IMG/VR virus record: IMGVR_UViG_3300026478_000696 | Span: 1-24,709 of that record | DNA from: a virus | DNA: 24,709 bases | Direction: 5' to 3' (one strand) | The notes under the pieces: model-generated | The model's database searches: none | What the model saw: only the letters and a program-made list of their open reading frames with translations | Told to the model about the DNA's origin: nothing | Shown here: in pieces, positions 6,152-19,246 of the stretch | Numbering within the stretch: the stretch's first letter is position 1 | How the letters are laid out: each line of letters starts with the position of its first letter | Position numbers and translations under genes: made by a program

Positions 6152-7393
6152 TCACGCCGCCTTGCGGGCGCTGCCGAGTTCGGCAAACGTGCGCCCGTCC
6201 GATTCCAGCGTGGCCTGTTTCCCGGTGAACTCCTGCCACCGCTGCACAATCACATCGACGTACTTCGGGTCCAGTTCCATGAGGCGGGCCACGCGCCCGT
6301 TCTTTTCCGCAGCGATCAGCGTGGTCCCCGACCCGCCAAAGTTGTCCAGCACGATGTCGCCGCCCTTGGTGTTGTTGAGTAGCTGATACTCAAAGAGGGC
6401 CACCGGCTTCATCGTCGGGTGCGACTCGTTGCGCGAGGGGCGGTCGAAGTCGAGGATGGTCGTCTGCTTGCGGTCCGCAGCCCAGAGGTGCGCCGCGCCT
6501 TCCTTCCACCCGTAGAGACACGGCTCGTGCTGCCAGTGGTAGTCCTGACGGCCCATGACCATGTGGTTCTTGCGCCAGATGAGGCATTGGCGCACGGTCC
6601 AGTTCGCGTCCTTACACGCGCCGCGGAAGTTGTAGCCCTCCGAGTCCGCGTGCCAGATGTAGAACACCGCGCCAGCCTTCATCACGGTGTCGGCAGAGAC
6701 AAAGGCGTCGCGCAAGAAGTCGCGGAAGGACTGGTCGTCCATGCTGTCGTTCTTGATCGTGAGCGCGTCTTTCGTCTTGCCGGTGTACGCGACGTTGTAG
6801 GGCGGGTCGGTCAAGAGCATATCGACGGCCTGCCCAGCGCAAAGCTTGTCGACCGCCGTCTGCTCCAAGCTGCTGCCGCACATGACGCGATGCGGACCGC
6901 ACACCCATACGTCGCCGAGCTTGGTGATCGGCTCGACCGGCACCTCCGGCGTATCGTCTGGGTCGGTTAGTCCCTCCGTCCCCGCGGGGGCGAGGAGCTT
7001 GGACAACTCGTCCACCGAGAAGCCGGTCAGGGCGATGTCGAAGCCTTGCTCATTGAGGTCGCCTAGCTCGACCTTCAGCAGTTCGAAATCCCAGCCCGCG
7101 TTGAGGGCCAGCTTGTTGTCGGCGAGAACGAGCGCCCGCCGCTGCGCCTCCGATAGCCCGACGATCTGGATCGTGGGCACCTCGTCCATCTTCAGCCGCT
7201 GGGCAGCCAGCAGACGCCCGTGGCCCGCGATGATCCCGCCGTCCTCGTCCACAAGGATCGGGTTGGTCCAGCCGAACTCTTTGATCGACCCAGCCAGCTG
7301 GGCGACCTGCTCGTCGGAGTGCGTCCGGGCATTCCGGACGTACGGGATGAGGTCCGTCAGCTTTCGGTACGTGACCTGAAGGGCGTTCGCCAT
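6152..7393 (-). CDS. ParB/Srx-like domain fused to N6-adenine/N4-cytosine DNA methyltransferase
   Basis: 413 aa from ATG 7393, chosen because AGGAG lies just upstream; an open frame extends to 7558 but looks non-coding. Residues about 10-77 form a ParB/sulfiredoxin-type domain (LIPYVRNARTHSDEQVAQLA, then GIIAGHGRLLAAQRL with GHGR at 57-60). Residues about 160-400 are an amino-methyltransferase. Motif IV is TDPPY (DPPY at 196-199) and motif I is DNFGGSG (350-356); IV before I indicates a beta-class enzyme, which methylates adenine N6 or cytosine N4. The conserved 'SHPTMKPVALFEYQL' element is also present. No restriction nuclease is next to it, so it is an orphan, often used by phages for anti-restriction or regulation. 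It has its own leader and promoter. Confidence 0.92.
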   Translation of the reverse strand: MANALQVTYRKLTDLIPYVRNARTHSDEQVAQLAGSIKEFGWTNPILVDEDGGIIAGHGRLLAAQRLKMDEVPTIQIVGLSEAQRRALVLADNKLALNAGWDFELLKVELGDLNEQGFDIALTGFSVDELSKLLAPAGTEGLTDPDDTPEVPVEPITKLGDVWVCGPHRVMCGSSLEQTAVDKLCAGQAVDMLLTDPPYNVAYTGKTKDALTIKNDSMDDQSFRDFLRDAFVSADTVMKAGAVFYIWHADSEGYNFRGACKDANWTVRQCLIWRKNHMVMGRQDYHWQHEPCLYGWKEGAAHLWAADRKQTTILDFDRPSRNESHPTMKPVALFEYQLLNNTKGGDIVLDNFGGSGTTLIAAEKNGRVARLMELDPKYVDVIVQRWQEFTGKQATLESDGRTFAELGSARKAA

Positions 7394-7432
7394 ATCGCTC
7401 CTGTAAGAGACGGCGTACCCCGGACGGGCGGC

Positions 7433-7460
7433 AAAAAGGTGGGCGGTTCTTCGCCCGCCC
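7433..7460 (-). terminator. terminator-like hairpin in methyltransferase leader
   Basis: Read on the minus strand: GGGCGG (7460-7455), an 8-nt loop, CCGCCC (7446-7441), three bases, then TTTTT (7437-7433). It lies about 40 nt before the methyltransferase ATG and about 80 nt after its predicted promoter. No other minus-strand gene lies upstream, so it would act as a leader attenuator rather than an end-of-operon terminator. The stem is only six GC pairs. Confidence 0.45.
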
Positions 7461-7548
7461 GGGGTCGCCAATGCGGACGGCCCGGGGCAGGGATGGGTCT
7501 GGAGGAAGGGGAACCGCCGCCAAGCCCCGGAAAATGCGTCCGGGTGTA

Positions 7549-7577
7549 CTTGTATCACCGGGATGACAGGCGCACAA
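7549..7577 (-). promoter_or_regulatory. methyltransferase promoter with operator
   Basis: Minus strand: -35 TTGTGC (7577-7572), 17-bp spacer, -10 TACAAG (7554-7549). The palindrome TATCACCGGGATGACA (7553-7568) occupies the spacer and touches the -10, as in the other operator-promoters. It would give a leader of about 150 nt before the methyltransferase. The -35 is weak; the conserved geometry is the main support. Confidence 0.5.
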
Positions 7578-12886: not shown

Positions 12887-13501
12887 GTGACTGTTAAAAA
12901 GAATGCGTCCCGTGATAGCTTCAAGTCGTTCATGGAAAAGCGCGGCCTGAAACCGCACCCATGGGCGAAGAAGGCAGGAGTTCGATCCAGCACTCTCTAC
13001 AACTACTTGAGCGGAGTCAGCGCAAATCTGACAGCCGACACGCTGCAGAAACTTGCAAAAGCCGCCAGCACGTCTGTTGATGAACTGCTTGGTAATACCC
13101 CTGTTGCGTCTAAAGCTACGCCGCCACAGATGGTTCGCGTCGAAGCTGTGGTTGGCATCTACGGGAGGGTATTCAGCGTGGACGACCAAGCGTTTGTTGC
13201 CAGACCGATTGGGCTGCCGACCGATGTCGAAGTGCTTGCCGCCAGAATAGACAAAGACGGCCTGCATCCAATCCCCGGTGGATGGACGCTGTTTTACGAG
13301 AAGCAAGCACGACCGCCGGACGCCCTCATCGGCAAGCTGGCAGTAGTAGACGTCACGGCGCAAAAGCAGCGTCTGGTCAGAGAGATTCAGCGCGGCTCGC
13401 AGGCTGGGTTGTACACGCTGACGGCGTGGAACGCTGCTGCGCTGATCGACGTAGAGGTTGATGCGGCTCATGCTGTCGTTTCGATTGCCCAAGTCGTTTG
13501 A
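12887..13501 (+). CDS. CI-like phage repressor (XRE HTH + S24-like domain)
   Basis: 204 aa, GTG start with AAGGAGGG eight bases upstream. Residues about 20-70 form an XRE-type helix-turn-helix (PHPWAKKAGVRSSTLYNYLS, then TADTLQKLAKAASTSVDELLG). The C-terminal half (about 85-204) resembles the S24/LexA repressor fold (GGWTLFYEKQARPPDALIGK, then LAVVDVTAQKQRLVREI). The catalytic Ser-Lys dyad is not evident: no SMxP-like motif, and Arg stands where 'vKrl' usually supplies Lys. It may therefore be unable to self-cleave. It sits between divergent replication and recombination blocks, the usual place for an immunity repressor, and is the best candidate to bind the recurring TRTCAYNNNNRTGAYA sites. 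Confidence 0.82.
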   Translation: MTVKKNASRDSFKSFMEKRGLKPHPWAKKAGVRSSTLYNYLSGVSANLTADTLQKLAKAASTSVDELLGNTPVASKATPPQMVRVEAVVGIYGRVFSVDDQAFVARPIGLPTDVEVLAARIDKDGLHPIPGGWTLFYEKQARPPDALIGKLAVVDVTAQKQRLVREIQRGSQAGLYTLTAWNAAALIDVEVDAAHAVVSIAQVV

Positions 13502-17683: not shown

Positions 17684-17959
17684 ATGAGAATCACGATTCA
17701 AGAGTGCGCCATACGCCTTGGCGTGTCGCCACGCACTGTCTTGCGGCTCTGCGTCAGCGGCCAGATTCCTAGCGCCATTCAGGTCGGAAAGCGATGGACC
17801 ATCGACGAGACCGCGATCCGCGGTTGGATACAAGGTAAGGAACAGCGATGTCAGGCAACATCTACCGACGAGGTAAGACGTGGTGGGGTCGGCTACAGGT
17901 CCGGGGTGTTGAGTACAGACGAAGTTTACGCACGGCTGATGAGGCTACCGCCAAGCTAG
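17684..17959 (+). CDS. MerR/excisionase-type HTH protein
   Basis: 91 aa. Residues 1-50 match the HTH_17/excisionase fold: TIQECAIRLGVSPRTVLRLC followed by QIPSAIQVGKRWTIDETAIR and GWIQG. Small proteins of this fold next to a tyrosine integrase often act as recombination directionality factors (Xis) or regulators of int, so excisionase is the favoured role. The last 37 codons overlap the integrase start by 112 bp and look like unconstrained sequence. It lies directly upstream of int. Confidence 0.75.
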   Translation: MRITIQECAIRLGVSPRTVLRLCVSGQIPSAIQVGKRWTIDETAIRGWIQGKEQRCQATSTDEVRRGGVGYRSGVLSTDEVYARLMRLPPS

Positions 17960-18972
17960 CGCTCGCCGATTGGAAGGAGCAGCTGGGTAGGAGCGAGGGC
18001 GGCGGTGAGGCGACGTGGCGGGCTGCGGTGGTCGCATGGTCCGAGACCATAGGGTCAATGGAACAGGGCGGCGGTGGGCTTAAGCCGCGGGTACGGGGCC
18101 GCTATCTGGACAGCCTTCGGCTATTCGACCACTTCTGGTGTAACAAGCGCCTCTCCGAGATCGGGCGACGCGAGATCGCCGACTTCATCCGGGAGCGCAA
18201 GAAGGGGTTCGTGCGGCGCGGGCCGGACGGCAAGCTCAAGCAGATGGGGCCGGTGTCCAACTATTCCATCTTGTGCGACCTGACGGCGGCGTCCAGCGTG
18301 TTTCGGGTCGCCGTAGCGTCTGGGATGTGCGACCACAACCCAGCCCGGGAATGGGACCGGAAGCTCGTGCGCCCGCGCAAGCGGGTGATGGTTCCCCCAA
18401 CCCTAGATGCCATTGAGACGGTCGCCTCGTACGCGACAGGCAACGTGGGTCGCCTGATCCTGTTTGCTGCAAACACCGGGATGCGCCTTATGGAGGCGGT
18501 GACGCTCGACTGGCGGGAGGTACGAGAGGACCGCGGAGAGGTGCTGCTGACGCAGACCAAGGTTTCGCGCCCGCGGGTCGTGAGGCTCAAGACGCCGGGG
18601 GGGGACGCTACCGGCACACTCGCTGGCACACCCCGGCACATCCGGTCGCACCTCGTGTTTGGGCATGGCGTCGACGGAGAGCAGCTAGCCAGTCCAGCCG
18701 GTGCTTTCCGGCACGTGATGCAGCGGGCGGTCAACGGAGAGGCGGTCCAAGGCCGTGCTTTAAGGCGATTTCGCTTCCACGACTTACGGCACGCCTTCGC
18801 GGTCCGCTGGCTGCTTGCGGGCGGGGACATCTATGGGCTGTCGAAGCACCTCGGGCACACCTCGGTCAAGACGACCGAGATATACCTTGCGTATCTGCCT
18901 GCGTACGAGGAAAGTAACCGGCACACCGCTGGCACAATGCCACCGGTTTCTGGCGACAGGCGTACCGCGTAA
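17848..18972 (+). CDS. int: tyrosine-family site-specific integrase
   Basis: 374 aa. An N-terminal arm-binding-like region (MSGNIYRRGKTWWGRLQV) is followed by a core-binding helical domain (about 55-175) and the catalytic domain. Active-site residues visible are R213 (NTGMRLMEA), H311 and R314 (FHDLRHAF), H337 (LGHTSVKTTEIY) and the nucleophile Y346. All are present, so the enzyme should be active. It integrates the phage at a chromosomal attB by recombining with attP, which is expected just downstream. AAGGAA precedes the ATG; the gene overlaps the HTH/Xis-like gene. Several GGCACA repeats, possible arm-type sites, lie in its 3' end. Confidence 0.94.
   Translation: MSGNIYRRGKTWWGRLQVRGVEYRRSLRTADEATAKLALADWKEQLGRSEGGGEATWRAAVVAWSETIGSMEQGGGGLKPRVRGRYLDSLRLFDHFWCNKRLSEIGRREIADFIRERKKGFVRRGPDGKLKQMGPVSNYSILCDLTAASSVFRVAVASGMCDHNPAREWDRKLVRPRKRVMVPPTLDAIETVASYATGNVGRLILFAANTGMRLMEAVTLDWREVREDRGEVLLTQTKVSRPRVVRLKTPGGDATGTLAGTPRHIRSHLVFGHGVDGEQLASPAGAFRHVMQRAVNGEAVQGRALRRFRFHDLRHAFAVRWLLAGGDIYGLSKHLGHTSVKTTEIYLAYLPAYEESNRHTAGTMPPVSGDRRTA
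18613..18640 (+). repeat. GGCACA repeat cluster, left copy (possible integrase arm sites)
   Basis: GGCACA occurs at 18613, 18625 and 18635, about one helical turn apart, inside the int 3' coding region. Positions 18622-18640 (GCTGGCACACCCCGGCACA) are a 19-bp exact direct repeat of 19228-19246. Two further copies lie at 18920 and 18931. Confidence 0.5.
18920..18936 (+). repeat. GGCACA pair near int stop
   Basis: Two GGCACA hexamers at 18920-18925 and 18931-18936, 11 bp apart, near the end of int. They share sequence and spacing with the clusters at 18613 and 19228 and could be part of the attP P-arm. Confidence 0.4.
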
Positions 18973-19006: not shown

Positions 19007-19022
19007 TGTTTCACGTGAAACA
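19007..19022. promoter_or_regulatory. parS: perfect parS palindrome
   Basis: TGTTTCACGTGAAACA is identical to the consensus parS bound by chromosomal ParB/Spo0J in most bacterial phyla. It starts 34 bp after the int stop and 16 bp before the putative attP core. A chance 16-bp exact match is very unlikely in a window of this size. No parA or complete parB is present in the window. What binds it here is inference. Confidence 0.8.
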
Positions 19023-19038: not shown

Positions 19039-19055
19039 ACCGGTCTTGAAAACCG
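19039..19055 (+). other. attP: putative attP core (tRNA-Ser anticodon-arm fragment)
   Basis: ACCGGTCTTGAAAACCG has the stem-loop of a bacterial tRNA-Ser(UGA) anticodon arm, with loop CTTGAAA. From memory it equals the E. coli serT anticodon arm. It is not part of a full tRNA here. Its position between int and the late-gene end, and the frequent use of anticodon arms as tyrosine-integrase crossover sites, make it the best attP core candidate. Eleven bases (19043-19053) recur in the complete tRNA at 19117-19127. Confidence 0.55.
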
Positions 19056-19073
19056 ATGCTTGGGTATTAGTAT
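19046..19073 (+). promoter_or_regulatory. probable tRNA-Ser promoter
   Basis: -35 TTGAAA (19046-19051), 16-bp spacer, -10 TAGTAT (19068-19073), ending 13 bp before the tRNA. The -35 falls inside the putative attP core, so recombination there could change the upstream half of this promoter. Confidence 0.45.
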
Positions 19074-19086
19074 CGTGACACCGCAG

Positions 19087-19177
19087 GGTGGGGTGGCCGA
19101 GAGGTTTAAGGCTCCTGTCTTGAAAACAGGCGAAGTTTCAAAGACTTCCGTGGGTTCGAATCCCACCCCCACCGCCA
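19087..19177 (+). tRNA. tRNA-Ser(UGA), complete with encoded CCA
   Basis: A full class II tRNA. The acceptor stem GGTGGGG pairs with CCCCACC; discriminator G and CCA (19175-19177) are encoded. The anticodon stem CCTGT/ACAGG encloses CTTGAAA, giving anticodon TGA (UCA codons). A long variable arm (GAAGT/ACTTC stem) is typical of tRNA-Ser, and the T arm is GTGGG-TTCGAAT-CCCAC. It appears functional. It lies in the attP region, downstream of int, with phage genes on both sides, so it is carried by the phage rather than being the host target cut by a prophage junction. Confidence 0.95.
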
Positions 19178-19227: not shown

Positions 19228-19246
19228 GCTGGCACACCCCGGCACA
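19228..19246 (+). repeat. GGCACA repeat cluster, right copy
   Basis: GCTGGCACACCCCGGCACA, identical over 19 bp to 18622-18640. It lies on the opposite side of the putative attP core, as expected for P' arm-type integrase sites. Confidence 0.5.

Follow-up and report, generated by a model that had tools for sequence, protein, structure and literature searches.

A palindromic 16-mer of the chromosomal parS type lies within the phage attachment (attP) module of a viral DNA stretch of 24,709 nt (the whole stretch analysed, hereafter the window), at positions 19007-19022. The best explanation, to which we assign a probability of about one half, would be that host ParB loads on the phage DNA and that the extrachromosomal phage genome is treated as a centromere-bearing replicon, in a phage with tRNA-dependent lysogeny. 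The site, TGTTTCACGTGAAACA, matches the parS consensus TGTTNCACGTGAAACA exactly by sequence comparison and is the only one of its kind in the window, where no other position comes within two mismatches of parS and one three-mismatch site is found at 13290 (shuffled sequence yields 0.05 sites at three mismatches or fewer). At the window's composition, about 1.4e-6 exact matches are expected. The identification as a canonical chromosomal parS of authentic host type is strong, as judged from the sequence. The gap between the end of the integrase gene int (18972) and parS is exactly 34 bp, and another 16 bp separate parS from a 17-bp core, ACCGGTCTTGAAAACCG (19039-19055), so that an exact consensus palindrome, placed 34 bp past int and adjoining a putative crossover site, is found just as a preliminary description of this DNA had proposed. 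The location is internal to the phage genome, away from any prophage-chromosome junction; by its sequence the site would work like parS but, lying on a phage contig, is no chromosomal locus.

The consensus TGTTNCACGTGAAACA is the general chromosomal parS, of which Hyphomonas carries two exact copies (PMC7022226). We found it in 87/115 alphaproteobacterial genomes, typically as about two sites some 2 kb apart, while the reversed control sequence was found in none. In comparison with the chromosomal parS of Hyphomonas, Caulobacter and Bacillus (PMC7022226), the 16 bp of the phage are identical, and the second phage variant is natural as well, both T and C at the N position occurring among the alphaproteobacterial host sites; the phage copy differs in being inside attP, away from a chromosome origin and with no parAB in the window. 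Alphaproteobacteria are the host class that we infer from the tRNA, the core and the integrase relatives, the core alone being not class-specific.

Resemblance to ParB is confined, in the window, to one gene (6152-7558, minus strand; profile match), in which a ParB_N domain is joined to an N4/N6 DNA methylase and which encodes no centromere-binding ParB; therefore, the window appears to encode no parS-binding ParB, and the earlier statement that it has neither parA nor a full parB holds. The fusion gene is easily taken for parB. Cognate par genes were found neither in the window nor in its sister contigs, all of which are fragments, and parAB may lie elsewhere in the phage genome, of which the window is a linear piece. 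The sequence supports the initial view of a host-type parS within an attP module, with host ParB as its obvious reader.

The elements of the module, all on the plus strand apart from the palindromic parS, follow the order excisionase-like HTH gene, int, GGCACA pair, parS, core, promoter-like pair, tRNA-Ser(UGA) and second GGCACA pair. The tyrosine integrase (17848-18972; PF00589, 6e-18; phrog_1, 6e-41) is overlapped at its start by an excisionase-like HTH_17 protein (17684-17959; profile matches). From their repeat pattern, the direct repeats GGCACA at 18920 and 18931 (18920-18936) and those at 19231 and 19241 (19231-19246) are putative P-arm and P'-arm Int sites, respectively; further copies are present within int at 18613, 18625, 18635 and 18854, the GCACA spacing is identical in the relative L004, and similar repeats occur in the relative L170. 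A promoter-like TTGAAA-16-TAGTAT (19046-19073; 0.1 expected) is presumed to serve a complete phage tRNA-Ser(UGA) with encoded CCA (19087-19177; tRNA prediction), and, because its -35 lies within the core, it would outlast integration. The preliminary description had recognized core, parS and int and had left the complete tRNA unmentioned. Past the P' arm, converging late genes encode a protein of unknown function, a deoxynucleoside monophosphate kinase and a tail fibre, and a CI-type repressor is encoded at 12887-13501 (plus strand; profile match).

Many Alphaproteobacteria have precisely the core sequence in the anticodon arm of their tRNA-Ser(UGA), and the exact 17 bp were present in 10/12 alphaproteobacterial tRNA-Ser(UGA) loci tested. 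When integration was simulated in silico at 10 host loci, the host tRNA was broken and the phage tRNA was left as the only intact tRNA-Ser(UGA), positioned at the junction directly downstream of the host's tRNA promoter and of the 5' half of the host tRNA, so that the module looks like a case of tRNA-dependent lysogeny and probably an alphaproteobacterial one. It combines a tyrosine integrase beside attP and a complete tRNA-Ser(TGA) with a short core located in a host tRNA gene that is not rebuilt at the junctions, and in this it matches the tRNA-dependent lysogeny defined by Guerrero-Bustamante and Hatfull for Fionnbharth and the cluster L mycobacteriophages (PMC10865867). Unlike in those phages, the tRNA is a tRNA-Ser(UGA) of a probable alphaproteobacterial phage, it lies inside attP, co-directional with the core, from where it would fall behind the host promoter, and it is accompanied by parS, of which PMC10865867 makes no mention. 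Judged by this anatomy, the module gives a new instance of a mode of lysogeny that was described only recently, and it would add a probable alphaproteobacterial case with the replacement tRNA placed under the host tRNA promoter.

An ordinary attP, containing the 3' half of a tRNA gene, was considered and rejected, the identity to host tRNA-Ser(UGA) being exactly 17 bp and the tRNA not being rebuilt; the ordinary 3' half, of tRNA-Ser(GCT), is used by the distant integrase relatives in Vineibacter and Siccirubricoccus. The anticodon-stem pair 29-41 of the phage tRNA is T-A in the window and A-T in L004, and the corresponding pair in the core is G-C; the difference from the core is thus compensated in different ways in the two phage types. 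The altered pair may serve to keep Int off the phage's own tRNA. Among the GTDB species representatives, neither a close relative nor a prophage at the predicted attB was found, and a lysogen sought among the genome contigs with both parS and the core was not found.

In the contiguous genomes that allowed both to be located, the tRNA-Ser(UGA) or best tRNA-Ser match lies 0.5-2.6 Mb from parS and mostly near the opposite side of the chromosome: the distance is 2.6 of 5.4 Mb in G119 and 0.5 of 2.3 Mb in G088 (the two genomes in which UGA identity was checked by ARAGORN), and it is similar in G099, G169, G181 and G143. A role of parS in bringing the phage to the ParB-rich origin region, as initially considered, finds no support as a way of homing to attB, the candidate attB being this far from host parS. 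Because host parS is far from tRNA-Ser(UGA), joint capture of parS with the host tRNA is also unlikely.

Five other IMG/VR contigs carry the module. Three of them (L002, L003 and L006) represent almost the same phage as the window, with 99.7-100% identity, and the other two (L004 and L005), at about 80-85% identity across the genome that they share with it, have the parS as TGTTCCACGTGAAACA. A further relative, IMGVR_UViG_3300013087_000033 (L135/L160), about 75-84% identical to the window, also keeps parS as TGTTCCACGTGAAACA, and it does so without xis, int, core, tRNA and the HTH part of the repressor. About 60 bp around its parS survive as an island between two separate deletions, and traces of the core and the P' arm suggest that what is absent was once there and has been lost. 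The losses are seen at 2410-2630 and 6770-6880 of L160, which has probably descended from a temperate phage and become obligately lytic.

Conservation in relatives sharing the att region, on which the preliminary description had made its proposal depend, was thus observed, natural variant included. The phage group offers only three independent parS haplotypes, among which parS varies in 1/16 columns and the flanks in 25/53 (p ~0.002, from a small and alignment-dependent comparison), and the sole parS change falls on the N position and gives another valid parS; the simpler pairwise test of the window against L004 returned p = 0.07. These data bear on the idea of a relic or neutral hitchhiker, that is, a host DNA fragment acquired once and now functionless. 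Such an origin would agree with the narrow distribution, confined to a close contig group, but we hold it improbable, given a 16-mer that is conserved while its flanks diverge, that changed only into a valid parS and that outlived deletions on both sides, and given the distance of host parS from tRNA-Ser(UGA), which makes joint capture unlikely. An operator of a phage regulator that merely resembles parS is highly improbable: the phages of the group do encode CI-type and other HTH proteins, but the site is single and far from the repressor promoter, it matches parS over exactly 16 bp, allowed N variation included, and it was retained in L160, which has lost the repressor HTH.

The xis-int-attP order is kept in the more distant L170 and L168, whose integrases are 46-47% identical, and L170 has a tRNA-Ser(TGA) after attP (L168 ends too early to tell). 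Their att slot lacks parS and holds another palindrome, ACACGTTTCCAGAACGTGT (2787-2805 in L170), which was rejected as a host site, with 0/115 alphaproteobacterial genomes carrying it. parS is also absent from the int-less relatives L136 and L171, and from the prophages of Vineibacter terrae (41%) and Siccirubricoccus (32%) with their tRNA-Ser(GCT) attachment. Since the integrase relatives at ≤47% identity are without it, parS is, on these sequence comparisons, a lineage trait and no feature of the integrase family.

The position of the site, with the putative P-arm Int sites on one side, the core on the other and the tRNA -35 23 bp downstream, would suit local regulation, with ParB clamps acting on int, on the tRNA promoter or on the intasome and with integration and excision tracking ParB; the other palindrome in the slot of L170 and L168, as if a protein site were wanted there, points the same way. 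We nevertheless regard such regulation as quite improbable, parS having persisted in L160 without int, xis, core and tRNA. Its retention there argues for a replicon-level role and against a role restricted to integration. Silencing of int, or any other int-tied attP function, which the preliminary description had listed, is hence disfavoured together with origin homing, and segregation or positioning of the free phage DNA appears the best fit among the options that it had named.

According to the preferred reading, a phage replicon engaged by the host partition system, Int would act on the 17-bp core and on the matching anticodon arm of the tRNA-Ser(UGA) of the host; their recombination would break the host tRNA and leave the phage tRNA-Ser(UGA) downstream of the promoter of the broken gene. 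Loaded at the phage parS, host ParB-CTP would spread over a few kb, and host ParA and ParB would bind and move the extrachromosomal circle, after infection, ahead of integration or while replicating, with the outcome that the circle is positioned and inherited; at higher copy number, the phage parS would draw the segregation machinery off the chromosome. That ParB loads, that partition follows and that the phage benefits is what we infer here. Because Caulobacter ParABS handles plasmid-borne parS, a phage circle with parS should, by analogy, be engaged by host ParB and ParA.

When a low-copy plasmid in Caulobacter bears a single strong parS, viability falls by up to ~1000-fold, at a cost proportional to affinity, and the loss was attributed to plasmids being segregated in place of the chromosome; at ectopic sites in the chromosome, parS is harmful in some positions and tolerated in others (PMC5815017). 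Unstable plasmids were stabilised by chromosomal par operons plus one parS (PMC7022226). That parS would have a stabilising effect in lysogeny cannot be taken for granted, because extrachromosomal parS is toxic in Caulobacter. The toxicity by mis-segregation would fit a decoy in lytic growth, in which phage parS copies outnumber the host sites and titrate ParB and ParA (and SMC), so that host segregation and division stop and the phage benefits, and so would the retention of parS in L160 although the lysogeny genes are gone. We consider such a decoy possible, if unlikely, as any gain to the phage is hypothetical, the int-less L136 and L171 have no parS, and L160 may be a recent derivative yet to lose it. 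Engagement by host ParB and ParA may serve either the inheritance of the free genome or the sabotage of host segregation.

If host ParB does load, a virus would here be borrowing the host centromere in a minimal form, by means of 16 bp and without any protein; the fate of the phage DNA would be linked to chromosome segregation, and pre-integration inheritance of the extrachromosomal genome, or stalled host segregation, would be explained. No gene would be altered by scrambling the parS, which makes a direct test of the question feasible. In the open-access literature searched we found no chromosomal parS in a phage att site, in agreement with the preliminary description, which knew of no well-described case of this placement. 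A close likeness is SGI1, which owes its stabilisation to the parS mimics of its IncC helper plasmid that it carries (PMC10954446): a mobile element without cognate par genes of its own (here, within the window and its sister contigs), with a mimic read, or in the phage possibly read, by the ParB of another replicon. In contrast to SGI1, the mimicked system would here be that of the host chromosome, with no helper plasmid and with one site, in attP. Phage-plasmids and extrachromosomal mycobacterial prophages with their own parABS (PMC7157519) are alike in the use of parS and ParB by a phage, but they encode ParA and ParB, whereas the window shows none and has the host parS sequence.

The exact parS 16-mer was found in at least 120 stretches of IMG/VR, against 1 for the reversed palindrome, counts in which host contamination is possible. 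Among the matches listed, 120 parS loci formed 90 clusters, and 33/90 were wholly outside ORFs (≥80 aa), compared with 11% of random positions; ParB_N was essentially absent from the 43 parS records tested. A tyrosine integrase was present in 9/120 records among the matches listed, and in one of these, the unrelated Firmicutes-type IMGVR_UViG_3300021440_000128 (L119/L247), parS follows int by 0.4 kb. In L247 (4891-4961), the exact parS lies about 30 bp after a tRNA/tmRNA-like 3' end, which is probably the att core, and converging late genes come next. One int-att-parS case in nine among the matches listed is suggestive, not significant. A broader reading, that several temperate lineages carry a single host parS, often beside att, and exploit or subvert the host's ParABS while encoding none, is tentative, its chances being somewhat short of even; it would be the chromosomal counterpart of the plasmid centromere mimicry of SGI1, and the literature searched contained no description of it.

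Apart from these, a cluster formed by L022, L049, L080 and L103 has up to five exact parS within 1 kb (L022, 2657-3444), with no ParB in the records tested; in L103 parS lies 20 bp after a tRNA-Gly, and the L022-type cluster may be of phage or host origin. A larger family defined by the parS-flank pattern was rejected, the matches beyond the phage group and L160 belonging to one marine phage family. In that family (L075, L144-L159), the exact 16-mer occupies a conserved place, which in most of the members examined is within a long late-gene ORF.
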